From Paramecium tetraurelia (lineage: Eukaryota; Ciliophora; Oligohymenophorea; Peniculida; Parameciidae), in NCBI RefSeq assembly GCF_000165425.1, contig NW_001799643.1, positions 274,365 through 338,364 of the forward strand: DNA of 64,000 nucleotides. The letters run 5' to 3'. The translations under genes were made by a program, and so were the position numbers. Numbering within the stretch: the first letter of the stretch is position 1; each line of letters begins with the position of its first letter. Shown piece after piece: positions 2,806-63,640 of this stretch. The notes under the pieces are model-generated. The model searched no databases. It was not told the DNA's origin and saw only the letters and a list, made by a program, of their open reading frames with translations.

Positions 2806-5800
2806 ATGCTTAAGTTGAGATATTTTCAATAATCTTTAAGAGGAGGAGGATCTGCCTTTTCTTCTACTAGTAATAGTCAGGGAGTACCCTAGAACATTTA
2901 AATTGAGGCTTAATTACATTCAACACTTTTAAATGCTTTTTTAGTTAACTTAAATAAAAGACTAGAGCAAATTGAACATATAAAAGAGATTATGAGCACC
3001 GAAGAAGGCAAAAGCGTGTTGAATAGGAACATTGCTTGGTTTTTGGAACTCGAACAATTATTTTGTTATTTCCAATTTCAGATTGACTTGGTCAAGAGAC
3101 ACAAATAAATTATCGAAAAGACACTCTAATGTTTCTTAGAATTGGCATCAACAACAATCTAATGGGACAGGTCGATCGCTTTAAAAGTATTAAAAATTTG
3201 CAACTCATTCTCCAGATTAATATTTATTTTTTACTCTAATTCAAATGAAAGAACTCAGTAATAGCAGATAGATAGATTGACATAGTTAACGGTCAATATT
3301 ACCAATTATGTTAATTTGGAGGGTGAAACATCTTTATTTTATAATGGGTTAATTTATGAGCTAACCTTGATCTAAGCCTGTATTAAGTATATACCAACCT
3401 AAGAGGAGTCACAACAAAAAAATGATTCTGCTATTGCTATTCTTAAAGAACTTGTAAACTCAGCTGTTAATTTAAAACCATCTCCTGATTTAGCTAGTTC
3501 AATTTCAAAAGGGGCGTTATTTTTATATTAACAATATCAAAAGAAGAAATCAATGGAACAATTTCAGAAGTGCCTATTTTTAGAATAATTAAAATGGAAT
3601 ATCTTGATGAGTATTAAAGCTGGTGTATTGTTTAATGAAATAGAAGACAAAATTAATGATAATTACAATAAAATTATTAAATAAGGGAGTGATTGGGCTA
3701 TTTAATATTCTTGGATTAAGATGGCAAGTGAACTAATGGCATGCAAACCACAAATTACTAAAGTCAAGTTTTTAAGTTTATAATAAGGTTCAAATTAAGC
3801 GATGACATGGGAACAAGCCTAATCAGATAATTTGATTAATGTAATCCATAAAGATTTTGAAATTGCTGAGATTATTGCAAAGAATTAAACATCAAATATT
3901 GGCATTAAATTATAAAGCATTTCTAGACAGTATTACAATCTCTAAAACTTTTTTATGAATGGAAATTAAGTCATACCTAAATTCATTGGTTACTATACCT
4001 TAGAATCAGGAAAAGATTAAATAAAGTTAGATAATGAATCAAACCAAGATTATTTTAAGATGATATAAGCATTAAGACAAATACCTTTTGATAAAATTGC
4101 TTACAATTTCAATGAATTTTTAAATAAATTTTCAGCATATTTAGCTAGTTTTTATTAAATAGAACCTAAAACAATGGATTTTACAGATTTCCAATATCAT
4201 TTAATATTAATTTAAGAACAATATCAATCTTTGCTCAATGATGTGATTAAATTTTAGATTTCAAGGAATTATATAAATAATATTATTGAAATAATCTCTC
4301 CACTTTTAATAAAATCAGATGAACTTAACAAATAGCAAACAACAATATATCATAATTGTTTTTAGACTTTTCTATATAATTATTCTAAGATATAGAGCAA
4401 AAAGTAATTTGATAAGAAAATTGATATTTATGATAAGCTTGTAAATTGGTTAAAACAAATAAATATAGTTTAAGAATAACAAATTAATTACTAAAAGCAA
4501 TTTGGAAAGAAGTTGCCAGAAGACTGCTTTGCCTTATCAAAAATTTAAGAAAAACCCTTTTAAACGTAGTTGAATTATCTGATTTTTGCACTTTAATTTT
4601 GTTAAATATGGAATCAATAAGTGTCTCTACTTTCATCATTGTTTACAGCAGAACACATTATAATCAATAAATAAGTTATCATAACAAAATAAACTTAAGA
4701 GGATGAAATGAAATCTATATCAGATAATCTAATTGAAGAATTTATTAATAGGTAGAATGCTAATTTCGAATATCTCCATTCTATCTATTCAATACTTTAA
4801 ATGTAATATGAATAATTCTTTGAATTAAAAGCATTGCTCTTTGATAATTTTTCTTTAGAAGATTTTGAAAAAATTTAAAAGAAATAAAAAATTGAATTCC
4901 TAATTGATTTAAAAATTGATTTCAATCTGTATTTTCAGTATTAAATCAATCAGCATCAATAATTGATTCAATTACTTGATAATCAAAATGAGATCCTATC
5001 TAATTAAATGAAGGAATATCAAATTAGAAAACTTAACTATTTTTGCTTTATATTTAACTTTTCTCTTATTTCAATAAATTAAATATTTAGCTTTAATTTA
5101 GATTCCATAAAGAAAATGGAAATGTTAGTAGAATTCGTTAGCAGAAAAGACAACAAGATATTATAAAATTTTAAATCAAACTAAATAAAACTTTAAACTC
5201 AAATTGATCTATTGATAGCATCTAAAGATAAGATATAATAATTTAGCAATATTGAATACGTAGAAAAAGTAAAGGAATTTGAAATTTCTGTCTAAGCCAT
5301 TTAATAAGAATTGCTAATAATAAATAATAGCGACTACAGAACTTAATTAGTTAATGAATTAAATAAATTTAATGAGTTCTTAGTGCATGCTAGAACAAGA
5401 TAAAAAAATTAATTGGATTCAACCATTGAAGCTCTAAAAACATGTACTTTAGAGTTCATTGATAAAATTGAAAATTTGTTTAAAAATTTGAAACAATCTT
5501 GGAAACAAGAATTGATTACTGAAATGAGTGAAAGCATAGATGAAAGAAAGCCAAATTAAGCTAAATTGTTAGAATTCACCAATAATTTCAAAAATTAAGT
5601 TTTGTAAGTGTAATAATCAATTGAATTTTCTGAAGTAGACACATTGTAAAATTTGGTGGATTTAATGAGATTTACAGTTTAAAATAATACAATACATACT
5701 TAATGCGAAGATAAAATCTCTAAAATATTATAAAAATTTCAACTCTTCATATCTAATATAAAAAGCCTTAATTATGAGGCATTTTGTAAAAGTTATTCAG

Positions 5801-8800
5801 AGTAATTATATTCTATTACTTAAAACCATAAAGAATTAGACCGATTTCTCAAAGATGAATTGAATTTCATATTTTCACCTGTTTAGAATTAAGTTCAAAC
5901 TAATTTAAAATAATGTAAATAAAGCATAACAGCGTCTATACTTGAATTTATTCAAGGTAATTCTTGGAGAGTAAAAGAAGGATTCTTATTTTAATGTATT
6001 CAATTAGAAAATCAATTGCAAGAATAAAATAAATAATCTATACAAAAAATATTAATCCTAATTGCAGCCAAGGAAACGAATTTGAAAATATTAGTAACAC
6101 TTAAAAACAAACAAATAGTATAACAGATGTATTAAGGATTCTCTAAGAATTGGCCAGAAGTACAAAGTGAGATTTAATCAGATTTAGCTAGCTAAATAAG
6201 TAGATTAGAATAGCTTTAATTTAGTATTTCAACTGCTGAAACTGATAGAAAGAAAGAGCAGCTACTTAAGGAACACAAAAAATTGGAAGAACAAGTTGAA
6301 TAATAAATATTAAATGTGAATCAAATTGGTGATGCTTTAGGTATCACTATCAATTTCTTAAGAGAAATTAAATAAGATCTAAATAAGATTCAATAGAAAT
6401 TAGATCAAATGCTTAATAAGATAGATGAAGTAGTTCAAGATATTAAATAATTAATTGGAAAGACACCTAAATAATTATTCGAAATTAGGATGTAATATAT
6501 TTTATAATAAAAAATTGCAAATGATTTCAATAATGTTTATGTAAATCTAAGAACAAAGGAATTGAAAGAGAATTTTAAAGATGAAGATGACGAAACTACT
6601 CTTTTTAATGATGTTTCTTAGAATAAAGGTGAAATTGATGAATTTTTATAATAACCAAAAGATTCTCTCCTTATTCATGGACCAGCAGGTTCTGGTAAAA
6701 GTGTAGCTGCTATAAAAATAGAAGAATACATCTGGCTATAATATTAATAGTTGAATTTAGATGAATGGTCAAAGGATTCAGAACAGATACCAGTTGTTCC
6801 TATATTCATTCAATTAGCAAGTTTAAAAGATCCTTATTTTAAAGCCATTGAGGAATCTTTAGCTTCAACGAACTATAATTTTGATTGGAGATAAATACAA
6901 GCTTTCTAAACTTAGGTTGAAGAAGGTAAGGTTGCAATCGTTTTCATTCTTGATAGTTTTGATGAATTAAGTAATAATTAAATAAATCTAATTTAAAATA
7001 ATAAATTGAAGAATTGGAGGTAATAGTTATTAAACTTAAGCGATTTAGCCTAGGGTCAATAAAGAATATATAGTCTTAATTATCCAAAAGTAATTACTAC
7101 AACTAGATCAGAAGTATTTGAGTTGAATAGTACAAATTATAGATAATGGTTTAGTAGTGAATCACTATTGGATTTTACGAAATATAAAGAATTAAGAATT
7201 CTCAGTTTTGATGATAATTAAAAATAAGACTACTTAAAATAATATTCATATACTTAAATAAAAAAGACTTTGCTTGATTATTTTGAAAAGTACTCAATTA
7301 TTTAAAAAAGAGGAAGAAACCTTATTAATGAAGTTGAAAAAATATGGAAAAATGTAGTTGACAAGTTGGAACGATTTAATCATTATCAATAATCAAATGA
7401 TTTATATTTAAGCGATAAACAAATCAATATCATAACCTCAATTTTGAAAAGTGAATTCAAGTTGTCTAATAAACAAGATTAATTTGCGATTTTAGAAAGG
7501 TAGTTAAGACATATTTAAACTCCTTAATTCTACAATAATAATATAATTGATTTTAATTTGGAGCAACTTCTCAAAACACCATTTATGATGAAAATAGTTA
7601 TTGACGTATTACCTTAAATCAACTCTTAGAAATAACAGCTCCAGTAGAATTATTTTATTTCTAATTATACTCATTCAATGTATGAAAAATACGTTAAGAA
7701 GAAAGAAATCAAAGAAATTCGATAGTTTTTAGAGAGAATTTCTTTAGAATAATATAAGGAAGATTAAGCAGATGAATTAAATAACCAATCATAAATACCA
7801 GAATAGCCAGAGTACTTAGAGGTTGATGAAGATACTAACCCACCTTCGCAATACTATATGGATGAGAGAATTTAATAAATGAAAAAAGCCTCACAAAATT
7901 CTCAGGATTATTATTAGTAATCTAACTAATATTACTAAAAATAGCAGCATTCAACTTAAAATTAAAAGTCATCACAAAGTTAGTAATAAATGCCTAAAAA
8001 TTATAGCGAATTTTAATATGGTTATCCATAAACGATGGATATTTAAAATTCTAGAAGTCCTCATGTAAATCCTACGAATTATTAAGAATAGCTGAAATAA
8101 GGATCGCCTTCAACAAGTACACCTTAAAGGCCATTTACAGCAACACAGAATTTTCAATAAATTCCTAATCAATACAATTATGAATAAGCGAAATAATAAA
8201 TGCCTTTAAGGGTAGAAGAAAACAATGAGAGATACAGATAATCTAATTATTATGAGTAAATTAAGCAGCCTATGCCTTTAAATGTTAGTTCCTAACAAAG
8301 AGTAGTTGGTACCTATTAGGTCTCAAGATCAAGTGCAGCTAATCATCAAATGAAACCTTTAAATAATAGTACCCATGACAGAGAGGAAGTAAATTATTAG
8401 GGATATGAATCACCTAATAATTATTAAGGATAGGTAGAGTATGCAAAAAGGGTTGCTTAAGAAAGGAGTTAAGCATATTCTCCAAATTTCAGAACATCAT
8501 AGGCAGATTAACCTCCAATTGTGTATGAGAGGGATTAAGGTGCTGAAAATTTCAAGCTATCAAAAGATCTTAAAATAAAGAATAATTTATAGATAAGGAT
8601 TAAGGAGAATTTAAGAGAAAAAGGAAAATAAATATTTTAAAAGAATTAATATTTCTCTCAGCAAGATTACGATTAATTTGGAGAAGATAAGTAGATTTTG
8701 TTAAGATGTTATAAATCTTTTAGATTGACATAGTACGACTTTTATGAATAATTCTTGGAGAATTACATTTAAAACTAAATGCAAAGAATGTCAAACCTTC

Positions 8801-11800
8801 AGCAACTAAAGTTTAATAATAATTTTGTAAATGAAGTTAATGATTATTCAAGACTGTTAGTGTCATATTTGATGCAATATTAATTAACTGCAATGGAAAC
8901 CTCGAAAACCTCTAATATGTCAGGAGTATGGAACTAAAAAATCAAACATCATTCTGCCGATCCAAGATTTCAAGAATTGTTTAATTAGAATTCTGAAGAG
9001 ATAACCTTAATCAAAAAATGCCTTCCTTTGAAACAAACCGGATCTATTTTGAGTTTTGAACATAAATCGATTTAAGAATTTATTTATGCAAAATTTATCA
9101 TTATTAATCTTTTAAGGATTAGTGAAATAATTAATTTGATCAAATAAATGAAAGTAGATGTTTTCTTAATGAATTAGAGTAAAAAGTTGAAAAAAATAGA
9201 ATTTATATCAATTTGTATTAATCTATTTTTAAATTAACGACTGGATACATTAGAAAATTAGGAATAAGCAAGAGAGATATTTATGTAAAACTTTATGTCA
9301 ATCTTTTAATTTTAATAATAGGTTTATTTCGATTGCTACAATTATATAATGGAATTAATATCTTTAATAGATTTTTCCCCATTAAATTATGTTATTATGG
9401 CAAATTAATTTTATATGGGAACAACAAGATTTATAGTAGAATATATATAAAACAATACGGATTTAAAGTCAGTCTTACATATTTTAGTTTTAATCTCAGG
9501 AATATCCTTAAAATTCGTGAATATTAGTTCAAATTCCTTTTAATTACTATCTTATATGTAGGAATTATTCTATGAAAAGAATTTTTCTGGAATTTATATA
9601 AAAGACATTAAGTTATTAGGATTAAAGTGTATAGGATGTGATTTTAGTAGGTCAACATTTGAGAATGTGACTTTGATGGGGACAAACTTAAATTATTGTA
9701 AAATAGCAGAAGTTAAGTGGAAAGACATAATCTCATAGGATTTACCAACTTTATCATTTAATATTGGCCCTATATTAAAAGCATCATTCTCCATTGATGG
9801 TAACTACATAGCATCTCTAGGACTTAACAAATAGTTAGTTGTATATTAGATAGGTGCTGAATAGGTAGTACAAAATGTTGAACTTACAAAAGAAGTAGTT
9901 GATTTTTGTTGGTCTAACACCAAATCTATGCTTGTATATTTCTCTGAAGAAACTTTAAATATCATGAGCTTTTATCAGGAATTATAAAATAGGGTAAATT
10001 ATGGTTAGAGAGATTAAAATGAATAAAGAGGTTAGCCTATCAAATCAAAACTGAAAATAGGAGACACTGTTAATTTGGTAAAATTTTCAAATTAAGACAG
10101 TTATCTATCAGTAGGATGTTAAAAAGGTAAAATAATTATTTATAAATATGCTAATTCGCAATTTACATAATTTAGAGAAATAATAGGAGTAGGAAAGAGT
10201 AGAATAACAGTATTTGACTTTTCTCCTGATGAAGATAACTTGATAGTTTGTGATCAAACTTCAATATTTTTATATAAAATATAAGAAGAATAAACTAAAT
10301 CTATTAGAACCTTATAATAAAACCAATAAGTAACAAGTATTGTTTTCAGTCCTGATGGGTAACTGTGTGCATATGCGACAACAAATGAATTGATAATAAT
10401 TTTTAGCTTAGTAAAATAAAAGGAGTAAGCTAAATTAATTGGTCATTAAAAGGCTGTTAGATGTATATGCTTTTCTAATGAAGGGAATATATTGGTAAGT
10501 GGTGGAGATGATAAGAGTGTTAGGATATGGGATTATATGAAAGGAATTTAAATTGGGGAGAATTTGCATAGTCATTCTGATGGTATTAATAGCATTGAGT
10601 TTTCGAAACCAGATGGAATGATTATTATGTCTGCAGGAAAGGATGGACTTATTAAATAGTGGCATCACTCTGATAACTATCGTGTTAGTGAATATTTGCC
10701 TGGGCATGATGGCAGCATTTTATTTATGATTATATCTTAGGATTCCTAAAGAATAATTACAAAGGGTAAAGATAAGAAAATAATATAATGGAACATTAAA
10801 ACAGCATCTATGGTTAATCAAGTAATAACTTTATAGAGTTGTTAAGAGTGTTCAATTAATAAATTATGTTCTGCCTGTTAATTAAGTCCTATCATAATTG
10901 TTGATTATGATCAATATATTATCACAGGTGGATTTGGTCACTCACTTTCAATATATGATAGCTACACTGGTAAATAAACATTTCAAACACTATCATGTCT
11001 AAAGCCTAAAGGAGAAGTCACTCATTTAGCATATTCTTAAAAAAATCATTTCATATGTTCAGGAACTTAGAATGGCGAAATTAAAATATGGGACAGTCTT
11101 AATGGAAGATAGTATAGTAAAAATATCACTCTAAATCATTAAATATTAGCTTTGTTTTTTGATCTAGACTAAAATCTAGTAGTTTTAAATTAATCTGGAA
11201 AATACACTAACTTTAAACTTGGTTCAGGAGATACAAAAACATAATCCTTCTAATATGAATTAATGGATGAAGCATCAGAAATAAAACAGATAAATTAATT
11301 GATTGTTGATGAGATTGCTGATTAATAAATTGATACATCATAGAATTCTTCATAAAGATCCAATAATAAAGTCTCATGTTTAGCACTCACATCAGATTAT
11401 TCTCATTTGGCGATCGCAACCAAAGCCTCAAATGTCTACATTCTAGAGACTAAAGACTTGTCAAAGATATTTTCCACATATTCTTATTAGGGTGTAATTA
11501 CCTCAATGCATTTTAATAAAATTGATTTAATTTTAATACTATCCTTTGAAGATCTTTCTATAAAGGTTTGGGATATATCAAAGAATATGCATGGGAATAA
11601 AATTGATTGTCACTAAGCTCCAATTAATTGTTTAGGAGCATCTTTGGATAATAAGTTTATTGTTTCTACATCTTTAGATAAATGTATTAAGATTTGGAAA
11701 TTGTAAAATTTAAGTGATGATGGAATCTTTTCTGAAGACATTAATCGTTTAAAAAAGAAGATACAAAGTTAAAAGTAAACTCACAAAGAATCTTTTTAAA

Positions 11801-12396
11801 AACTCAATTTTAGCCCAATAAATCAAATTAGTTAAGATATTGTAAGACTTACAGATAATTTGGAGTGGATGAATTTGGTAGAGGAGCGTTAGCTAAGGAT
11901 TTTTGACAAAGTAGAATAGATGTATCATCATTTATCTGAATTAAGAAGGGTTGACATGAGTGCTACATTAAGAGAATAAAAAACGTTAAAGGATGAAATA
12001 ACAAAAGAAGGAGAAGAAATTGAATAGTTACTATATACGAGTGATGAAATGATTTAATCGTTTAGTTAAAATATGATCGATATCACTACGAAGTGTTTTA
12101 CGGTATCACAAATACTTTAAGAAAGATTACTACTGAAATAAAACGAACTTAAAATATTTAAAGAAACATTGATAAAAGAGAAGGAGGAAAGAAAATAAGA
12201 AAAATAACATGTTTCAGAAGTTAAGGTTAACTCCTAAAATTAAATAACTTTCTCTGAAATATTATGTATTAATAAGACTCCTTAGAATTAAAAGTTTATT
12301 GGAACAGTTTTTGAAAAATCCAATATTAGAAATAAGACTAACCATGATTTGTTTAAGCTTTGGTAATAAACATAAGAGAAGAAAAATCATTATTGA
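2806..12396 (+). CDS. Giant NACHT / pentapeptide-like / WD40 STAND NTPase (3,196 aa)
   Basis: One intronless frame of 3,197 codons. Residues 1-1240 are helical and unassigned, with a coiled coil near 1145-1235. The NACHT core follows: Walker A GPAGSGKS at 1292-1299 and an acidic Walker B-like LDSFDEL from about 1382. A glutamine/asparagine-rich, probably disordered stretch covers about 1655-1912. FEHKSIQEF at 2084-2092 matches the winged-helix FxHxSxxEF motif of NACHT proteins. Residues 2259-2309 look like pentapeptide repeats. WD40 repeats run from about 2320 to 2970, with GxDKSVRIWDY- and LDKCIKIWKL-type blades, and a coiled coil ends the protein. In known STAND proteins the WD40 part senses a ligand and ATP-driven oligomerisation triggers the N-terminal effector; here the effector is not recognisable. 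Cytosolic location and a surveillance or scaffold role are inference. No break is seen over 9.6 kb, which argues for selection on the frame. Confidence 0.93.
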
Positions 12397-31400: not shown

Positions 31401-34400
31401 TACTTAAATCAAATATGCAACAGGAATAGTTTTATTATAGAGTCTATCCCTTTTATAGAGCACTGAAATTTCATTAGTCAGTTGATAATCTCTTTACCTA
31501 AATTGGATTGGAAGTCTGTTTATTCTTTATTGTCATTACTGCCTATTATCAAAGGAATTTCTTTTCTGTTTTCTACATTGTAGTTGCTAGTGCATTTGCC
31601 AATAAATCACATTTATTAGATAGACATTAGAAATTAGGTATTTTTGGATAAGCATGGGGAGCATTGTGTATATTATAAATGTTGGAAGTTATAAGAAAAT
31701 ATGCTACATTGTAATGGACTCCTCCATCATGGGATGTTCGAAAACCGTGGTGGTATTTTAGTTACTCTTGCGATCCTAGAGGAAAGGAGTCATTTAATAA
31801 TGATGACCCAGATGATTCTACTAGTGATTTCATGAAATGCCAAACAGATTGGAATTATTGGTTATCTTTATAAGGATATACTAATTGGGATTTGTGGATC
31901 AATTTCATTGCCTTACTCATCTCCTTGTGTTATTATCGACATTTCAAGACTGTTTAAAGAAGATAATAAGAATAGGAGATTCAAGATCACTTACATCCTG
32001 AGGTAGAATAGATTTAAGCCAATTTGATGGATAAAAATGATTTCACTTATGAGGAAAACAGAACTAAAATCATGGATTTCATAAAGTTCTTTATCTTTTG
32101 TTATTTCTACAAATTCGCTTTGATTGTATTTTTGTTGATAGGAATGTCATCGGATATCCAATCTTATACAGAAGTGATCTCTTGTATCTATTTCTTTTTG
32201 GCAATCAATCTATTGTATATGAGTGAGAAATTAGAGAAGGACAGAAATGTAATTTGGGGCAAGTTAATATTATTTAATACAATTGTGATGATAGCAATGT
32301 CATTATATTAAGCTCCATTCGTCAAATGTCCAATCATCTATGAAAACGATAGGTATTATTATGATAATTTGGAATGTGTGCAGATTCAACTCAACAATCA
32401 TTATTACAATAGTGATTTCTTTATCTTCTTATAGGATGAGTTTTAATTGTTGGCAAAACAAACCAATGATGTATTAAAGAAGTATGAAGGAGTGTCCACT
32501 TTAGATGTGATTTACATGTTCTTATCTCATCTCTTAGGTTTGAATAAAACTTTAGAGTATTAAATTTATTGTTAAAATTAGTTTCCGATTCGGTTTCTGT
32601 AAGGAGACTTTGATGGCATTCTTCTTTTTGCTTGGACTACTACAAAGGAATATTTGGGCACATCCTTATATGAAATAATATGTGGATCCATATTTGTAGA
32701 GACAATAATAATAGCAAAAGATAAGTGCTATTTAACTAATAGAAGGAATACATTTAAAACGAATTTGGGATTTCAAGTACGTGCAAGCATAAAAGTAAGT
32801 GCATGAGAGTCTACAATAAAGAGTGTAAAATAGAGTTGAAAGATGGGATAATTTCTTTTAGTTTGATGATAATAACAGTTTGAAAAAGAAGAGTTTCTTT
32901 TATTTGACTCCGAGAAGAGAAGAATAATTTTAGATTATTTAATTTTCTGAGGAACGATCAGAGGATAATTAATAACATACAAGTTTTGATTCTGAGAAGT
33001 TTTAAGTGTTCAAAGGTGAACCAAAGAAGTTGATGAAAGCTGAGAAGATTACATAATAAAATAAGGCGCCAGTAATACATTTGTATGATGCTTGTTGCAT
33101 TGTTAAATATTCAATCAATGAAAAGGATTTGAGATTGAGATTAAAGAAGTTAATGTTATTAGAAGAAAAAAGATAATTGGAAAAGGTCTATTTGAATGAT
33201 AGAATTGGATTAACTAATTATCACATTGGAGTAATTGATGAAATTGATAGAAAAATCATTCAAGTTGACAATGAAATAGCTCAGTTATTTAAAGTACAAC
33301 AATTGATAAAATCTACATCCATGAGAGATATCAAAATGATACCATTTGAAGAATTCAAAGATGAACGCAAGTCTTTTGAAATTCTTAGTGAGAGAGATGA
33401 AAGACAAAAATAAATATCTGAAGAAGAAAGTGCTAAGGATTTTAAGAAGTCAGAAGATGATAAATCAGAAGATGAACCTCCAATTGTCTAGCCATAGAAA
33501 TCATTCTCAGAAAAGGTCAAGGATCTTATCATCTATATACTCACCCATGAAACTTACATCAGAGAATAAGAGTAATAACAAAATGAAATAGACAAAAAGA
33601 AATTGTCAGTCTTGATATTTGTTTTTGTTGCGCATTACTTTTAAGTGGTTTGTGTATTATTGATGGTATTTAATGCTTGTTTCAATGCTAACATAATAGC
33701 TTTATTCTACCCTTTTTCAGCCTTCCTCTATGGGTTATTAGAGAATCCGGTTCCTTCTAAACGATACTGGAACTTCTTACTCATCTACACCATAATAATA
33801 ATTTCATTGAAATTCATATATTAGATGCCCATCTTTTGTGATTCACCTCCCTACACATTTATAGGATTCTCTTAAGAAGAAGCATGTGAACCTAGAGTAA
33901 CAACTCAATAAGAGAAAATCACAAGGATAGACTACGTTATTGGTATTCGAAAATATTAAGGAGCAGAAACCTTCATGAATGCCATTTGGATAGAATTACT
34001 ATTATTTATAGCTCTCTTAATCCAGAGGTATTTGTTGCAATCTTAGGGAATCTGGGATTACATGAAATTGTCATTAGATCAATATTTCATACCTTAATTC
34101 TAACAGTAAGTAGATGACAAATCAAGTGAACACCAATAGGAATCTAGTTTGAAGGAATCTGAACAAGAAAGTGACGATTTCTCAGAAAATCATCAGGTTT
34201 AGGAGTAATAAAAAGAATAATAGACGATTATGATATCTATTTAAGACACCTTTACATCTATGTGGAAGCAAATAGTCAAATACTATTATCGTTTATTCCC
34301 TCATGCTTTATCTACCATTTACAATTAAAGGAAATATGACCCTGCAACTTAACAGATGATAATAAAAGATGGAGTCGTACTTCCAGAACAGATTAAAGTG

Positions 34401-36226
34401 GGTAGAGATTTCTATGCCCCGGGATTTATCATTTGTATGATCATTTTAGTCTACTTCCTATTATTCTATCCAAATATCATAGCCAAACGAAGTTATGCTC
34501 ACATTACCTAAGGATAGAGTCAAAGATTTTCATCTGAAGTTATATTTGTACTACTAGTTGTCATTACTATCATAATTACTGACAGAGCATTGTTTATCAT
34601 GAGGAAAGTGACTAAGGATCCAAGAAATGACAAATAAAATTAGAGTGGAAATGATATCCAGAAATATACTTTGATGATAAAAGTAGCCATTCATTTCATT
34701 TTAATCATAGTTGTTCATTATTACTTCTTTTTTGTTATACCATAAAAAACTAATAAAAGTATTAATAAATCATTAAATTTTAGGATTCTAAGAGTCATAC
34801 TATCTAATATTTGCATACATTCTAGTTTGTATATATTTTATGATTTCATCTGTGTAAATAAGATATGGATATCCTATATAAAAGTATACTCAGATATTTA
34901 CTAATTCTCATAAACCAGCCAATTCAATGGCATTTAAGATCTATAGAATGATTCCCTTTTTATATGAATTGAGAGTGATTATTGATTGGACATTTACTAC
35001 TACAGCTTTGGATCTAATTTAATGGTTTAGACTCGAAGATATCTTTGCTAATCTATACATCTGTTAGGCATATTAGGATTCTCGTATTGAAAATCACAAG
35101 TTAGGAGATCCAAGATCTGCATCTGACAAATGTTTAAATGGATGTCTCTATTCGATGTTTATTGTTTTTATTATCATCTTGCCAATTCTGATTTTTAGTA
35201 CATTAAATCCAGCTGTAGAAATCAATAATATCACAAATGGCAAATTTAGTATTAAGGCTGCTTTCTTTGGTTCTGATGATAAGTTATTCTTTACATTATT
35301 TTAAGTAAACGACTTAGAATTATTGGATATACCAAATGATTAATTTAAGAAAATATAAAAGATCTATGGTGAAATTGAAACATCATGGTAAGAGAGAATG
35401 TAAAAAGTTAGAATCAAGAGATTCAGTGATATTGAATGGAATCTTCCTGAAAATTATAGAGATTAAATCAGAAATATGATAAAGTCATAAGAGTATTAGG
35501 TAGAAATCCAATGTGAATGGGTATTTTAGAAGAGTGATAGCTAAGGAGGTGCAAAATCATTCACAGGTTAATCTATTGTATAGGCACCTGATACATTTGT
35601 AAATAATTTTGGTAAGATCCTTGCTCCAAGAGCACCTGATGCCGTATTTGACATTAAGGTGTTGGTTCCAAAATTCTTATATGTTGGAGAGTCTGCTGAG
35701 ACTCAAGCATTACGATTAGAACCAGTTAATATAAGAGAGGAAATCAGTTACTATTAAGATATTCGTTTGATTCACAAAAAGACAAGTGATTTTGTATTCT
35801 TTGAGTTGGTACCCAATGATGATTCAACAGATTTGAAGTAGATTGGAGGTATATTTTGATTAATATGCTATAGCATCATCATAAAATAGAGTTGAATTCT
35901 TTGTATTGAATGAATTAGCTTTTGGTAGTTTGATTGGAGCATTGTCTACAAATATGTCAATAATAAGTATATATGCAACATTTGTGTTGACAATCGGTAG
36001 GTTTTTGAGATTTGCATATGACAAAATAAGTACAAGAGTTATGTTTGAGGAAATGCCAGAAACATATGAATTATTTGATTTGTGTCAAAGCATTTATATA
36101 GCAAGAGTGGATGGAGATTTCTTTAACGAAGAAATATTTTATGAATTACTAATTAGGATATATAGAAGTCCAGAAATACTATTTAAAATGACAGGTGCTT
36201 CAATTTATGATAGATAAAAGAAATGA
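28423..36226 (+). CDS. PIEZO: Piezo mechanosensitive cation channel (2,560 aa)
   Basis: Six exons, introns 28487-28512 (26 nt), 28626-28645 (20), 32557-32581 (25), 34759-34783 (25) and 35849-35873 (25), give 2,561 codons to TGA 36224-36226, the normal size for Piezo. The N-terminal two thirds hold dozens of membrane segments in repeated four-helix units. Family signatures near the end: YPFSAFLYGLLENPVPSKRYW, KVGRDFYAPGFIICMI, the anchor MIPFLYELRVIIDWTFTTTAL, the extracellular cap, the pore helix region (FGSLIGALSTNMSIISIYATFVLTIG), FEEMPETYELFDLCQSIYIAR and the C-terminal IRIYRSPEILFKMTG. Piezo trimers open a cation pore when the membrane is stretched. In a swimming ciliate a role in mechanoreception is plausible but not shown here. 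Large Q/E-rich loops between helices appear lineage-specific. Confidence 0.95.
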
Positions 36227-46200: not shown

Positions 46201-49200
46201 TCATCTGATGAACTATTAAAAATACTTCTACTTCTCCTATCCCTATAATTCAGCTATGAATTCATCGAACTGTTCTACTTTCTATAATAAAGTCTCTTCA
46301 TCAATTTCACTTTCTTATGATTTCTTATGCATCTCTTAAATCTCTTAAGCTAAAGTGCAATTCTTTATGAATTTCTCTAATTTCTCTTAATATTTGTTCC
46401 TATAAAAGGCATCTTTGTTTTTATTATTAGCTTTCAAAGAAATAGCAATAAACTTCAAAACTGTTTCTTTGCAAGATAAAGTGGGATATTTGGGTTTTTA
46501 ATATCCTAATTGAGCCAAAACTCTTATGATAATATTCTTAAGATGTAATTCTAAATATGATGTGCAATCACCTCTCTTCGCTACTTTCTTTGCAATATTC
46601 TAAAATATTTATAAATATTTATTATACCTTGACAGATTATAATTCTCCCAATTACATTTTATCAGGTAATCTGGCATGCTTGTATCTCTAAGGATTCATT
46701 TCAAATAATTGCATATTATGTGCGTTAGTGAATATCAATTGTTAATTCTTATGGACAATCACTAAGTTACTTTGACCCTTAACTAAATTGTTGTTAATCA
46801 ATTCAACTGGACAATGACCTAAATGCATTAATAATTACATAATACCCTTATATTCTGGATATGGATCGAATTTATCTCCAACAGTTAGTTATCTTGGTAT
46901 CTTATATTTTTCAATTGAATTATTGCAATAATGAGTGGGATTCTTGATAAAATCTTATTCAGTATCTTCACTTGATAAGAAGAATAATTAATCATCATAA
47001 AACAATAGATATGGACTTCTTAACTAACTGGCCACGTAATTCTTTTTTGCTTTAATTAAAACAGGACAATAATTATACAATGGACTTAATTTTTGAATGA
47101 TTTATTCTTCAGTCAAAGTCAAAGAACTTACTCTAACTGGTTCCTATGTAATTAATGCTCTTGCTACTAAAGCTCGAGAATATAAATTGTCTTATATATA
47201 TTTAGTGCATAATGAGATCATACCCCAGCTTGATACTTATCCAACCTATAGATATCTCACATTATTGAAATGTGTTGAATAATATGCTGATAATAATGAA
47301 GTTTGATTTGCCGATAATCTTTAATGGACCACATGATCAATACCACCAAATTTAGGATTTAATTTACGAATTACATATTCATCATCTTTATCACAAACAA
47401 ATACTACTGTTGGAATGATACCTGCCTTTGATAATGCCAAAGCTTCATCAATGGTTCTTGGATACCCATCTAAAATGTATCCTTAATTGTATATGTCAAG
47501 CAATTGAATTCTCTTTTGAATAATTTAAATTATAGATTATGTATCTACCTCCTTGCCTTCTTTCAATTGATTTTTGATTTTTACTGCCAATAAATCCGTT
47601 TAATTAGTTACAAATTCAGCCAGCAAATGGGACACTTTGACTCTAGCTAATTTTAGTTTATCACTTAACAATCTAACAATCTCAGTTTTTCCTGACTTTA
47701 CTTTTCCTAAAATGAATATAGTGGGCTTGATTTAAATATCATTAGGAACTGTTGGCTTATAAAAGTATTTGTATGGTCTTTAGCATACCTATTCCCTTTA
47801 ATCCTCACTGTCAAGATAGTAAATTCTATTTCTATATAAAACTGGATAGTCTCTGCAATGAGGAACATTTTACAAGGTAATGGCATTCCTATTTCCAAAT
47901 TTAGATTATTTATGAGTGTATAATTTTTCATAGATATCTAATTTATTTATATTAAAGTTGGTTGGATCTGGATACAAATTTAATTTTTAACATTATTCTT
48001 TTTCTAACATATTTTCTCTGTATTCTCTATCCATAATATTTTCTAATTATGATGTGATTCTTTCTGTGACATTTTCTATAGTAGTATCAGTACTGAGGAT
48101 TACTGCATTGATTTTTAATTCTTCAAATTATCTTTACAATTCTTCAATTTTAGCTGAATCTGCTTCATGCTATTACTTTAATTTATCTTCCTATTCTTTT
48201 ATCATATCATCTAATTTAGGTGCTTCTGGATCTTCTTCTTCACCTTGAGGTGCTTCCAAAGATGGCAACTCTTCAGCCCCTTCTTCAATAGCCTTGTTTC
48301 TTGCCTCCACTCTTTCCTAATACCTTTTCTATCTCAACTCTTCCATCTTCATCTAATATTCATCCTCAATAACTTTAGAATTAAAGTTTCGTTTAATAAA
48401 GTTATCTTATTCTATTTTTAATAAAATAACATATTCAGGTAATTTTTTGGCTTCAACTAATAAATCAACAATTGGAGTTGAAACACTCTCCTCTGAAACA
48501 TCAAAGAAATTAGCATTAATAATTACCCCTGCACAGTCTAAGATTTTATTTAATACTTCTATTTCATGAGCCTTGCGATCAAAATCAGCAGGATCTTCAG
48601 TGATTTCAGCATCTGGAATTTCTTTTCCATCAGCATCCAATTCCTTTGGTTTAAATCCTTTTAAGTAATATCTATTCAATTATCTATTCTTTTTATTTAT
48701 TTCTAAATTTTAAATTAAATTAGTTTTCAAATCTAAAACTGGTAATTTATATAATCTATTCAATATTTTCAATTGAGTACGCAAACCACTTCCTCTTACA
48801 CCAATGAACATAATTCTTGGTTATGGGATTGTTATTTTTGATGGAATATACAATTAGACATTATCTTTAAATATTTATTATTCCTTTTCTCCATAAAATC
48901 TATAAACTCTTCCTCTTACTAAAGCAATAAACTCTTCTTTTCCTGGTACTAACCAATTGGTTTTCTATAATGTAACAGGACAATAATTAGCATAATCACC
49001 ATAAGGAATAGGTTCTTCACCTTCTTGCACATCTGCGGGTGCTCTCACTAAACTTTCATCATCAGCTCGAATATAAAATGGATCCAAAGCCAAACGCACT
49101 CTAGACCAAACTTCCTCTCTAGTTCCATCAATAGGGATTTCTTTAACATTCTCCTCTTAATAAGCCTCTTTTAATAATGCAGATAAGGCATTTACTTAAG

Positions 49201-52200
49201 TTAATTCCTATTCAATTAGAAGGTCAGGATTTCTTTATAATAATAATTGTCCTGCTTCTTCTGATCTATCTTAAAGAATTAGAACCTTATCTATTTTAAT
49301 CCCCCATAGATTCAATTAATCAATTTATTCTTATGTTTATGGATATCCAATGATCACAATCCCTTTTGGTTTTGATGTTTCAGGGACTTTCAATTCGCTA
49401 TCCAATAATGGTATGATCTCTTTAGTTGGTACATCTTCAGGAGGTGGAGTGACTGGTTTAACATTCTCTTCCACAACTTCAACGACTTCTTCCTTCTTTT
49501 TCTTTGCTTATTACTTTTTAGCTTCTTTCTTTTTCTTTTCTTCATCTTCTTCAGGTGGTTATTCTTCCTCCTCTTTCTTTGGTTCTCCCCACCCTAGAGG
49601 TTTTCTTTGTAATGGTATATTTAAGTAATTTAACACCATAGGTAATACATCCTTAATAGCATTTCCTTTGTAGAATTCTTTCCATTCAGCTTCTGTTAAA
49701 TGAATATCATTAACTCTTGGATCAAATGTTGATGCTAAATGTTTAGTTCTTTCTTGTTAAGCCAAAATCTTCTTTCTCACTATATCCTCGACATCAACCA
49801 ATGTCCATCCATAATACTCAGCTAATTGACTAGCCACAGTATTCTTGCCAGAACACTTAGGACCTTAAACTGATACAATATAGGTTTTTGGCAATTATGG
49901 AGGTTTACTTAAATATTTTCTAGGATAATTGATGAATTTATTTTAATTTTCTTCATTATCAAACAAAAACACTCTGCCTGCATATTCGCAAGCAAATTCT
50001 GCCTTACCTGGTATAATCTTATCTTTTAACACCAATTCGACTGCATCAACCTATTACCATTAGGACCACATTCTGTAAACCTTTTCATCAGTTAAATTCA
50101 ATCCTAACAAGTCCTTCTCTGAGCCACCTTCTAATTTAATAGCTAGGGGCCTTAAAGGTTACCCTTTCAAAATTTAAGCAGATACGCGATCAACTAATTA
50201 TTATGTTGTCAAACCAGCAGATTGAAGTGTAATAATATGTTGATCTGGTAAATGATCATATAATGACTATAATTTCTCTTATGATTTTTAAAAACTTTGT
50301 AGTGATTCTAATAAAAATTCTTAATCTAAAGGTCTATAAAATAGATCCTTTTCTGGTATAATAGGTGGTTTCTCCTCATCGTCTGGATTGTCTCCCTAAT
50401 CTTCTTCGTCTGGATCATTTGGATCTTTATATTTTATCTTAGGTCTCTTTTATTCTTCTCTATCATATTATGAAGATGCCACTAAATCATCTTGTTTTTC
50501 CATTATTCTAGCTGCAAAATACAAAACATCTTCATCTGATTATTCTAAATTAACAACATGCGTGAAATATCTACAACCTATTTTTGGTAATATCATTTTG
50601 TTAGATAGTATTGAATTAACCCAAAATTGATTCTCCAAAGGTAGATCTAAGATATACCCTTTATTTTTAGGTAAATCCTATTATAATTCAACATTAAATA
50701 ACTATTCTAATTGTTCTTGAGTCAATTCTCTTCCAAATTTTAATGAATCAATTACTTCTCTCTCCAAAGGGTTCAAAAATTCTTTTGGATTTCCCTCCTC
50801 ATCCATTTAAGGATTATTTTCATTTTCTGCTACTTTGGCATAAATTCTTTGAATTCCCTTTTCTAAATCTAGGTATTCTAAATCAAGTTATTTAGCCAAT
50901 GCCTTAGCAAATGTGCTCCTACCACTTCTAGGTTTCCCAATCAAGAATATTTAAGGAGGTGCTTGGTTTGCGTATTCAATAACATCATCTTCATAAGGAT
51001 TCTTACTATCAATCGGTAATTATCCTTTTGGTGATATGAATTTACTCAGATATGATTGAAATGATGGTAATTATACATTTGATTATTGTTCTTAAATAAT
51101 TTCTAAAGCTGGCTACAATTATTATGAATCCTTTGTTTGATTTAAATCACCTAAAAAGGTTCTGAGAATTTAGGGAATATTCTTTGCTTATCTTTTATCA
51201 GGATTTGATGACTTTGAAATATCAAAGGTTTATAATTAAGAAGTTAACAATTATCTTTTAGCTGAGACAATCTTTCTCTCCCATTTCTTATTTACTTTGT
51301 TTATTTAATCAATTCTGTAATCTTCCTCTGTAAAGAATTCACTTTTGATATTGATCAATAATGGTTTTTCCTCCTAACTTTTTAATGGGAATTAAGACCA
51401 CTATATATCTCTCGTTATCAATTTACTTAATTTATAAAATTGAGAATGAAATCCATAAGAATCGTCATTCTACTCTATTATATATTGCAATCCTATCTCT
51501 GGAACTAGTTGACTATTAGGTAATGCCAATAAAAATGTTTCAGTAACATTCCCAATCAGCTTTATTTCCTTAGCAAATGCATATTAAGCAGATGTATAAT
51601 GTTGATATTCGGATTGTTGGCACTTATTATTCATCAAAGTAAATATCATGCATTCACAACTCAATCCAATAGGAATAATTTCATTTAGAGGTGCCAATCT
51701 ATATTTGATTATTCTACTTGGAATCACATTAGCACTCTATAATTATTCTTCATTATAGATGTACTATTCGGTATAATAGATTGGGAAGAAGGACTTTTTG
51801 GAGTCACTTTTCAAACTCTATTCAACTCGATCGGAATTATGTATTTTTACAAGAATATGATAATCTACATCTTACTTTGTATTGTCTAATAATCATAAGA
51901 AGCCAATACCTTTTACATCTATCAACTACCGACGATATATACGAGCATGAATTGTTTTCAAAAGGTAAATGGCAGAACTCAAATCAGGTTGAATAATCAG
52001 TTAAAACAACAATTAAGTTATTGCATCTACAAACACTTGATAACACAAGTATTCAGGAAGATTTGGATCCAAATCTGTCATCGATTCTAAATACTATTAT
52101 GATAACTGTTTCAGACTTTCATCTGGTAAACATATTACACACTTCATTATTGCTGTAATCACCTATGATAACAATAGAAATTTACCTCTAACAACTCGGT

Positions 52201-62005: not shown

Positions 62006-63640
62006 TCATATATTTAAAATTTCATAAGTCTAATACTTTTCTTTCTTCCGATCCCAAAATACTAAATACTCTCCATTATTGGTCATGCTTCCAAAAACTT
62101 ATTTTACTTAACAATTCAATTATTTATAAACTTTAAGAGTACCATCGATTAATTATCTAAAGAAATAGATATGATATTTATGTCTTATCAACAATATATT
62201 TTTTTCTAAATTATGTACGATTGAAAAATTCATATCATCTTCGCTTTTATTATTCTTAGTTAATTTGATAGTTTTATTAGCATTTTATTAAAAAACCCCT
62301 CTCTATAATTCAAATACTAAAATATCATCAATATCTGCATCCATAGTTACCCAAATTAGAAGTTAATCATTTATTAAATGTATTTTATACCCTTTATTAG
62401 CAACTGATTATTTATATTGAAATTCCCATTTTCCTGAGAGTCCTTATTCCCATACTATGAATTCATCAAATCCACAGGACACCAATTAAGTTTCATTTGA
62501 ATTAAACGATAATGACTCTACACTGTTTTCATGGTTATTTAAGGTATAAAGAAAAGTCAGCTGATTCTTCATGAAATCTACTTTCCAAACATTTATATAT
62601 TTATCACAACTTCCTGAAATAACTTAATCCTCCTCTTTATTTAACATTAAACAATTAACTCCTTCAAGATGATTTTAATATGGCTATGAATACTTCCACT
62701 CATGTTTATTAATCTATTACCAACAGATGAGAGTGTGATCTATAGAACCAGAAATAAATGAATTTCTGAGTTTGCTATACACTAAACATCTAACAGTCTC
62801 TTGGTGTTATGAATAAGTGTTAATTAATTTTAATTTTCCTTTTTCAATGTTCCAAATTTAAATCTTTGGACTCTCACAAGATACCATAATTGATCCTGTT
62901 TTATCAAACACTATTGCAAAACAATACCCACTTGATTAATTTGAATTATCAATTTATTTAAGTTCAATTTTTTTAGCTATCATCTATTATTATTATTCTA
63001 GTTATTCCTATTAAATGGCAATTTAATTCATTTCCTATTGTCTCTTAGCATCACATCTTTAGTTTCCTTAATGTTATATACTTTTCAATAATTCCTCGCA
63101 TTATTTGGTTTCTTAAAATGATTTAAAAAATGTTAACGTCGTATTGATCTTCGAACTTTTTGACTAATTTTATTTGTGTATTTGTTCAATAAGAGATTCC
63201 TGATTGAATTAATCATTATTTTTTTAAATAATTAATTTTTCTAATTCATCAAAAAAGCTATATGTGGCATTTTATTCTCCATATTTCAACACTTCTTAAA
63301 TCCATTAATCTACAAACCCCATTAATTTTTCTATATTTTGAGCAACTTTATTTTTTAATTCAATTAGAACCAACCTAATTTATTCAATATAATTGATATT
63401 GATTCTTACAACATTCTCAACATATAATTTTCTTTGATTTTAATTTGCTTCAATTTTTTCTTTAACTTATTTAAATATTTTAAAAGACTCATTTGATTCT
63501 ACACTGTCTATGCATATTCTGCATAATAGTCTTTACTTCTTATTTAGTCTTGGGTCACTAGATACCATAAAGTTTGGCTCCTTATGAATAGCACATTAAA
63601 GAATTTCCTCTTCTTTTTCGGTCATTCTTGAAGTAATCAT
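62006..63640 (-). CDS. Zinc-finger / coiled-coil / WD40 protein (544 aa)
   Basis: A single uninterrupted frame of 545 codons from ATG 63640-63638 to TGA 62008-62006. The N-terminus has a B-box-like finger: CAIHKEPNFMVSSDPRLNKK then CRICIDS. Residues about 45-270 are coiled coil. The rest are WD40 blades: CFAIVFDKTGSIMVSCESPKI-Q-IWNIE, SFISGSIDHTLICWQQ, QVISGSCDKYINVWKVDF and LVSCGFDEFIVWEQ, then weaker ones. The same layout occurs in the gene at 26635-28393, but the sequences are clearly different and this one has no introns. It probably works as an adaptor; the ligand is unknown. Confidence 0.88.

Follow-up and report, generated by a model that had tools for sequence, protein, structure and literature searches.

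The window, by which we mean the whole 64,000-nucleotide stretch of Paramecium tetraurelia DNA analysed here, contains a forward-strand frame of 3,196 residues when it is read with genetic code table 6, in which TAA and TAG encode glutamine. Within the frame 264 TAA/TAG codons are read as glutamine, and TGA occurs only at the end. The sequence-only reading had described a single uninterrupted frame of this length with NACHT motifs, an FxHxSxxEF motif, a pentapeptide-like stretch and WD40 blades, and our analysis confirms both the frame and the places of the motifs (Table 1), including Walker A at residues 1292-1299 and the Walker B-like motif. Other uninterrupted frames in the window reach 1,748, 1,537 and 1,429 residues, so that long single frames are not unique to this gene. 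Elsewhere the window holds a Piezo-like channel fragment, a frame with P-loop stretches and a further WD40 protein.

Table 1 Features of the window gene, its surroundings and related loci (window coordinates unless a contig is named)
Feature	Position	Strand	Remarks
Whole coding frame	2806..12396	+	3,196 aa, table 6; no intron detected; colinear with paralogues
N-terminal arm	2806..6525	+	residues 1-1240; family-specific, no known domain; residues 1-700 predicted all-helical at low confidence
N-terminal signature LRGGGSA	2836..2856	+	residues 11-17; most frequent form in the family: LRGGGCGx[ST]K
NACHT NTPase region	6526..7785	+	residues 1241-1660; Pfam stretch 1288-1409
Walker A GPAGSGKS	6679..6702	+	residues 1292-1299
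Walker B IVFILDSFDE	6937..6966	+	residues 1378-1387
Q/S-rich low-complexity insert	7786..8580	+	residues 1661-1925; not in C211, C35; evolves fast, with 42% aa identity between the twins
Winged-helix-like segment	8581..9135	+	ends near FEHKSIQEF (9055-9081, residues 2084-2092)
Pentapeptide-like stretch	9610..9729	+	residues 2269-2308; Pentapeptide_4 E 6.5e-6, 26.6 bits, cut-off 38
WD40 propeller region	9766..11745	+	residues 2321-2980; blades diverge from each other
C-terminal tail and stop	11746..12396	+	residues 2981-3196; evolves fast, with 53% aa identity between the twins
Piezo-like channel fragment	32610-34967		Pfam THU_Piezo1 1.3e-30
Single frame with P-loop stretches	46568-51814	-	1,748 aa; adenylate-kinase/AAA-like P-loop stretches; YHS match just under cut-off
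Further WD40 protein	62006-63640	-	adjoins contig end
Twin of the window gene	C224:257900-267200		inverted copy
Homogenised 126-bp WD40 arrays	C138 (8466-9301 of analysed segment), C222, C108, C210, C8, start of C191, start of C169		
Pentapeptide-WD40 module on C210	segment 1-1764		preceded by a different N-terminus that includes a Cys/His-rich stretch

The window protein combines a Walker A with a Walker B of the form hhhhD[GAS]xDE, the pairing that characterises the NACHT clade. Its Pfam NACHT match is below the model cut-off (8e-5, 23.0 bits against 26.7), which counts against the STAND reading developed here; across the region it is 37% identical to its sibling C35 (loci are named after the contigs of the organism's own assembly, 69.07 Mb in 231 contigs, C224 being the window contig). 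The FxHxSxxEF motif, which we take to belong to a winged helix (WHD), marks a putative conserved-histidine winged helix after the NTPase, with superstructure repeats of the WD40 type behind it. The Pfam WD40 match is strong (2.4e-37, approximately residues 2340-2970). These motifs bear out the earlier proposal of a NACHT-WD40 STAND protein in a ciliate. PADLOC made no call for the window protein, nor for one C35 segment.

The nearest relative of the window gene, its twin, is an inverted copy that starts about 10 kb upstream on the same contig (257.9-267.2 kb) and has 85.6% DNA identity. Internal indels between the two are multiples of three in 15 of 20 cases. For the pair of window gene and twin, dN/dS comes to 0.24 for residues 1-820, 0.33 for 868-1240, 0.20 for NACHT, 0.20 for the WHD, 0.25 for the pentapeptide stretch and 0.28 for WD40, with looser values for the Q/S-rich insert (0.66), residues 2111-2230 (0.45) and the C-terminal tail (0.42), and 0.33 overall; these are pairwise averages that do not tell which copy is constrained, and they mostly omit residues 821-867. 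That interval surrounds two single-base shifts in the twin, near codons 822 and 862, and the twin is possibly a pseudogene or misassembled. Purifying selection acts between the two copies. The mostly in-frame indels, together with dN/dS of 0.20-0.33 in six of the nine segments, show that the frame is not a product of chance. Similarity to the twin falls off 5' of the window-gene ATG and LRGGG follows after ten residues in both copies, which supports the assigned start. As for hidden in-frame introns, GTA...TAG candidates exist, but none of the seven window/twin indels of 15-200 bases corresponds to a GT...AG unit of equal length and the candidates were rejected, in a test that is blind to any intron kept by both copies. 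A phenylalanine-rich stretch (744-765) is open in both.

With TGA as the sole stop in the code, two or more adjacent genes could in principle be read through as one frame, and the weak conservation of the low-complexity insert at residues 1661-1925 would suit such a junction. We give this explanation very little credence: the insert is missing from C211 and C35, the paralogues hold an identical part order in one frame across about 2,900 residues, and 3,196 TGA-free codons at about 26% GC are by our own estimate not expected by chance. The window frame looks like a real gene of Paramecium and a divergent member of a large NLR-like STAND family, whose architecture resembles that of intracellular immune receptors in fungi and bacteria.

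Nine paralogues, the twin among them, were read at length. Single frames run from a Met before LRGGG in C211 (2,946 residues), C35 (2,934), C67 (2,894) and C62 (2,830), and C169 is open across 2,450 codons until it is cut near a contig end. Frame breaks occur in four of the nine, a further point against the STAND reading; C138 and C153a have an N-terminal break that, judged by eye, is not intron-like, and C49 is divided between two frames. Over nearly full length C67 is 40.5% identical to C211 and 41.4% to C35, and the window protein shares 24.8% identity with C211 across residues 3-1724, so that a common part order connects the window protein and its distant paralogues at about 25-41% identity. 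Since four of the nine paralogues, all of them distant, are likewise single frames, the absence of introns is an old trait.

The lack of introns had earlier been read as a possible sign of recent gain or retrocopying. We reject both, because C211, C35, C67 and C62, distant and on other contigs, are equally intronless single frames; a "recent" gain of the window gene is refuted, and horizontal transfer or retrocopy as the cause of the missing introns is highly improbable. The twin also speaks against it, being an inverted DNA duplicate whose similarity does not end at the stop codon and carries on toward the adjacent MFS gene. In favour of a gain, the sole prokaryotic relative in one scan, a protein of a Methylomicrobium MAG, likewise links NACHT with pentapeptide repeats. 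Its identity is 22%, and its architecture makes an ancient bacterial source possible. Scans for viral relatives of NACHT and of the N-terminus, one each, found none.

A search of the organism's own genome with the window NACHT region gave 31 matches, corresponding to at least 28 loci on 24 contigs with the window gene counted, a lower bound that includes some broken loci. Pfam NACHT was found in all three members scanned (best 2.6e-10). The model PF05729 gave ten matches in the genome, each over the cut-off and each at a family locus; it also matched 11 of 14 control genomes, in three of them over the cut-off, which weighs against the STAND reading. All 25 translated loci carry a GxxGSGKS Walker A, 23 of them a Walker B-like motif and 22 FxHxSxxE(F/Y), in a count that omits C108, C52 and C111, which were split in the search, and in which C206 is cut by a contig end. 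A NACHT tree was built from 27 loci, with C108 and C52 included and C111 omitted. It places the window gene with its twin on a solitary long branch and unites C138, C169, C52, C222, C206 and C108 in one clade with support 100/100; a false joining of long branches may affect C128/C166 and window/twin. Four family loci are clustered on C153. Thirteen of the 28 loci lie within 20 kb of a contig end (p 2e-5), which we do not read as a subtelomeric bias, because contigs also break inside repeat arrays. Eight contig ends were inspected. That of C50 opens with mixed CCCCAA/CCCAAA repeats, a telomere type that together with the genetic code points to Paramecium; two others read N, and the remaining five show no telomere.

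The first 1,240 residues had been proposed as a possible new effector or scaffold domain, and neither Pfam nor PDB profile searches placed them in a well-known family. Residues 1-1240 of the window protein matched nothing in Pfam better than 0.022, the N-termini of six members gave no Pfam match at E below 0.01, and a profile of these six aligned against the PDB gave six weak matches, mostly helical bundles (best E 0.033). AlphaFold, run without an alignment, returned pLDDT values of 37.7 and 31.6. That the N-terminus shows no recognised effector domain is another point against the STAND reading. Searched against its own genome, the window N-terminus gave at least 36 matches, with 37 of 51 candidates scored, and 35 of the 36 are at family NACHT loci; the exception is on C192, a contig that ends about where NACHT would start. 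The N-terminal arm is shared across the family, private to it and probably helical.

A degenerate DNA pattern for LRGGG[CS][GA] occurs at 19 places in the genome, compared to one for the reversed control. Seventeen of these sit 3.5-4.2 kb 5' of a same-strand NACHT match; the remaining two are C192 and C12, the latter with a WHD/pentapeptide-like match 2.8 kb downstream that contains two TGAs. A looser pattern adds C211 and does no better than its control (23 against 21), a point against the STAND reading. Altogether 18 of the 28 NACHT loci have an LRGGG start, and its absence 5' of the other ten counts against the STAND reading. Of these, two (C169 and C168) are truncated by contig ends, and the start of contig C53 reads N; an N-terminal match that lacks LRGGG is present at C50, C90, C159 and C219, and C128, C166 and C111 have no N-terminal match. 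Because C50, C90, C168, C53 and C219 belong to one clade, LRGGG may have been lost there. Twenty starts were selected for LRGGG, so that its constancy among them carries no information. Directly after it stands C in 17 of the 20, then G in 19, and the tenth place is K in 15. Four of them (C12, C153c, C153d and C153e) have no in-frame Met in about 100 bases upstream.

The common form LRGGGCGx[ST]K looks like an LRGG end of the ubiquitin type with a GCGxSK behind it that is similar to myristoylation/palmitoylation sequences. Read from the third glycine, 16 of the 20 starts fit an N-myristoylation-like consensus. N-terminal lipidation would need prior cleavage, because LRGGG is not at position 2. 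By eye no ubiquitin-like sequence was seen in short stretches upstream of LRGG. A processing role for this motif near the protein start is a guess, and we mention it as speculation.

The WD40 region of the window protein is not of the 42-aa tandem-repeat type with high internal conservation, its best 40-mer self-match being 12/40, and Tandem Repeats Finder detected no 126-bp array of such kind in the window gene or C35. It detected 126-bp arrays in C169, C138 and C222. The repeats of the sister clade measure 42 aa (126 bp) and are 72-86% identical within an array (mean amino acid identity 86% in C222, 81% in C108 and 72% in C138). Several arrays therefore fall short of the 85% criterion given in PMC4986451, and of these three only C222 passes. 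A PDGTTLASG pattern is found at 80 places genome-wide, against none in the control, many of them exactly 126 bp apart. These places include the NACHT loci C52, C108, C138, C169 and C222, all in the 100/100 clade, as well as C210 and the contig starts of C8, C169, C191 and C205, and several contigs start or finish within such arrays. In C210 the part 5' of the pentapeptide segment has no NACHT match. The pentapeptide-WD40 repeat module is common to different protein types, and its presence in C210 without a NACHT match implies that the variability is not confined to proteins with the STAND switch.

For the HNWD genes of Podospora, PMC12222747 gives repeats of 42 aa/126 bp that are over 80 to 100% identical and in which dN/dS is high at positions 10, 11, 12, 14, 30, 32 and 39. 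We examined these seven positions in 41 repeats from seven arrays, 14 of the 41 coming from the NACHT loci C138, C222 and C108. The repeat register was set before the test from the HET-E sequence, and it is the best of the 42 circular shifts (2.21; next 1.29). Mean entropy at the seven positions is 2.21 bits compared to 0.46 bits at the other 35 (column-permutation p 1.5e-5), where the repeat regex fixed seven of the other columns (other mean about 0.56 without them) and units that did not fit it were dropped. For NACHT-locus repeats alone the values are 1.76 and 0.36 (p 1e-5), and for single arrays p ranges from 5e-6 (C222) to 0.004 (C138), six of the seven having enough units; the repeats are not independent, because they exchange sequence. 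The positions are variable as a set, most strongly 30, 12, 14 and 11. Position 39 is not variable (0.33), and outside the set positions 3 (1.78) and 4 (1.47) are. Pairwise codon differences, as raw non-synonymous to synonymous counts and not dN/dS, are 3,771:372 at the seven positions and 4,195:2,505 elsewhere. PMC3464196 remarks that Paramecium IESs present in 3 to 6 copies trace back to TPR or WD40 repeats that expanded or recombined, which fits this picture.

Three known systems invite comparison. The fungal HNWD/NWD NLRs (Podospora het-d, het-e and het-r) have NACHT followed by WD40, as in the window protein, and the sister genes share with them homogenised 42-aa/126-bp arrays with variation peaks at 11, 12, 14 and 30. 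They differ from the Paramecium proteins in several respects: no HET domain was found by Pfam in the N-termini of six Paramecium members, which have instead a private 1,240-aa N-terminus and a pentapeptide segment between WHD and WD40; the identity of the sister arrays (72-86%) extends below the fungal range given in PMC12222747; position 39 is not variable in them; and the window gene's own blades are divergent. The Methylomicrobium protein (HD-CE/NACHT/Pentapeptide) also has NACHT followed by pentapeptide repeats, but in addition to its low identity it carries an HD-CE domain and no WD40 by Pfam. Animal APAF1 and TEP1 combine an NB-ARC or NACHT STAND ATPase with WD40 repeats behind it, and TEP1 organises a complex in vaults and telomerase. 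The WD40 of APAF1 is among the PDB matches, but neither a CARD nor a TROVE domain was found, and among Pfam models NACHT, not NB-ARC, scores best across the members scanned.

We consider it likely that the window frame is the gene for a giant STAND NTPase with a private N-terminal arm, in an old and expanded NACHT/winged-helix/pentapeptide/WD40 family. The sequence-only reading is supported in part: its STAND interpretation holds, its proposal of recent gain or retrocopy does not, and family size, the LRGGG signature and the repeat diversification of the sister genes had been missed. We infer that the protein would act as an NLR-like STAND switch or sensor and may have an immune role. By analogy with STAND biology, the WD40 propeller or propellers would bind a ligand or partner, the NACHT-WHD module would exchange nucleotide and oligomerise, and the N-terminal arm would pass on or scaffold the output. 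Variable recognition is probably carried by the sister clade with its homogenised, surface-variable WD40 repeats. The window gene, which forms a lone long branch with its twin and lacks homogenised repeats, would probably have a conserved sensor, helper or scaffold role.

The same two features would also suit a constitutive scaffold that is no receptor, in which the helical arm and WD40 organise a complex and NACHT serves assembly, with no variable recognition. Consistent with this, the window WD40 is as constrained as the remainder of the protein, and a TEP1 beta-propeller model matches at 1e-24, below its own cut-off and as one among many WD40 models. The search of the window protein and six members' N-termini for a TROVE domain before NACHT, a TEP1 trait, found none, and the number of loci, the frame-broken copies and the four-locus cluster on C153 look like a receptor family; we regard a pure scaffold as rather unlikely. 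Returning to the receptor family, we put forward tentatively, at somewhat less than even chances, that the ciliate holds a diversifying intracellular receptor repertoire for non-self similar to fungal HNWD, with the window gene as a conserved, non-variable member. In such a repertoire the clade of C138, C169, C52, C222, C108 and C206 (the last counted by the tree, its WD40 being cut off) would homogenise its 126-bp WD40 units and vary their binding-surface codons for recognition of non-self, e.g. symbionts, parasites or viruses.

In the open literature, which includes few of the subscription papers, we recognised no paper describing a Paramecium NACHT/WD40 family. Fungal NLRs are tied to multicellularity (PMC4986451), two fungal phyla hold 84% of eukaryotic highly repetitive propellers (PMC9218822), NACHT/NB-ARC is scored in 67 species (PMC7539657) and NACHT is present in almost all eukaryotes (PMC3499355). 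NACHT itself is not new in protists. The finding in the window is not an isolated oddity, and the more surprising part is the repeats of the sister genes. Homogenised, surface-variable repeats on NLR-like receptors are best known from filamentous fungi. Paramecium is a genus open to manipulation that hosts bacterial symbionts. If true, a family of this size that carries such repeats in a single-celled phagotroph would make it possible to test directly whether multicellularity is required for this mode of recognition, and it would offer a new N-terminal arm for study.
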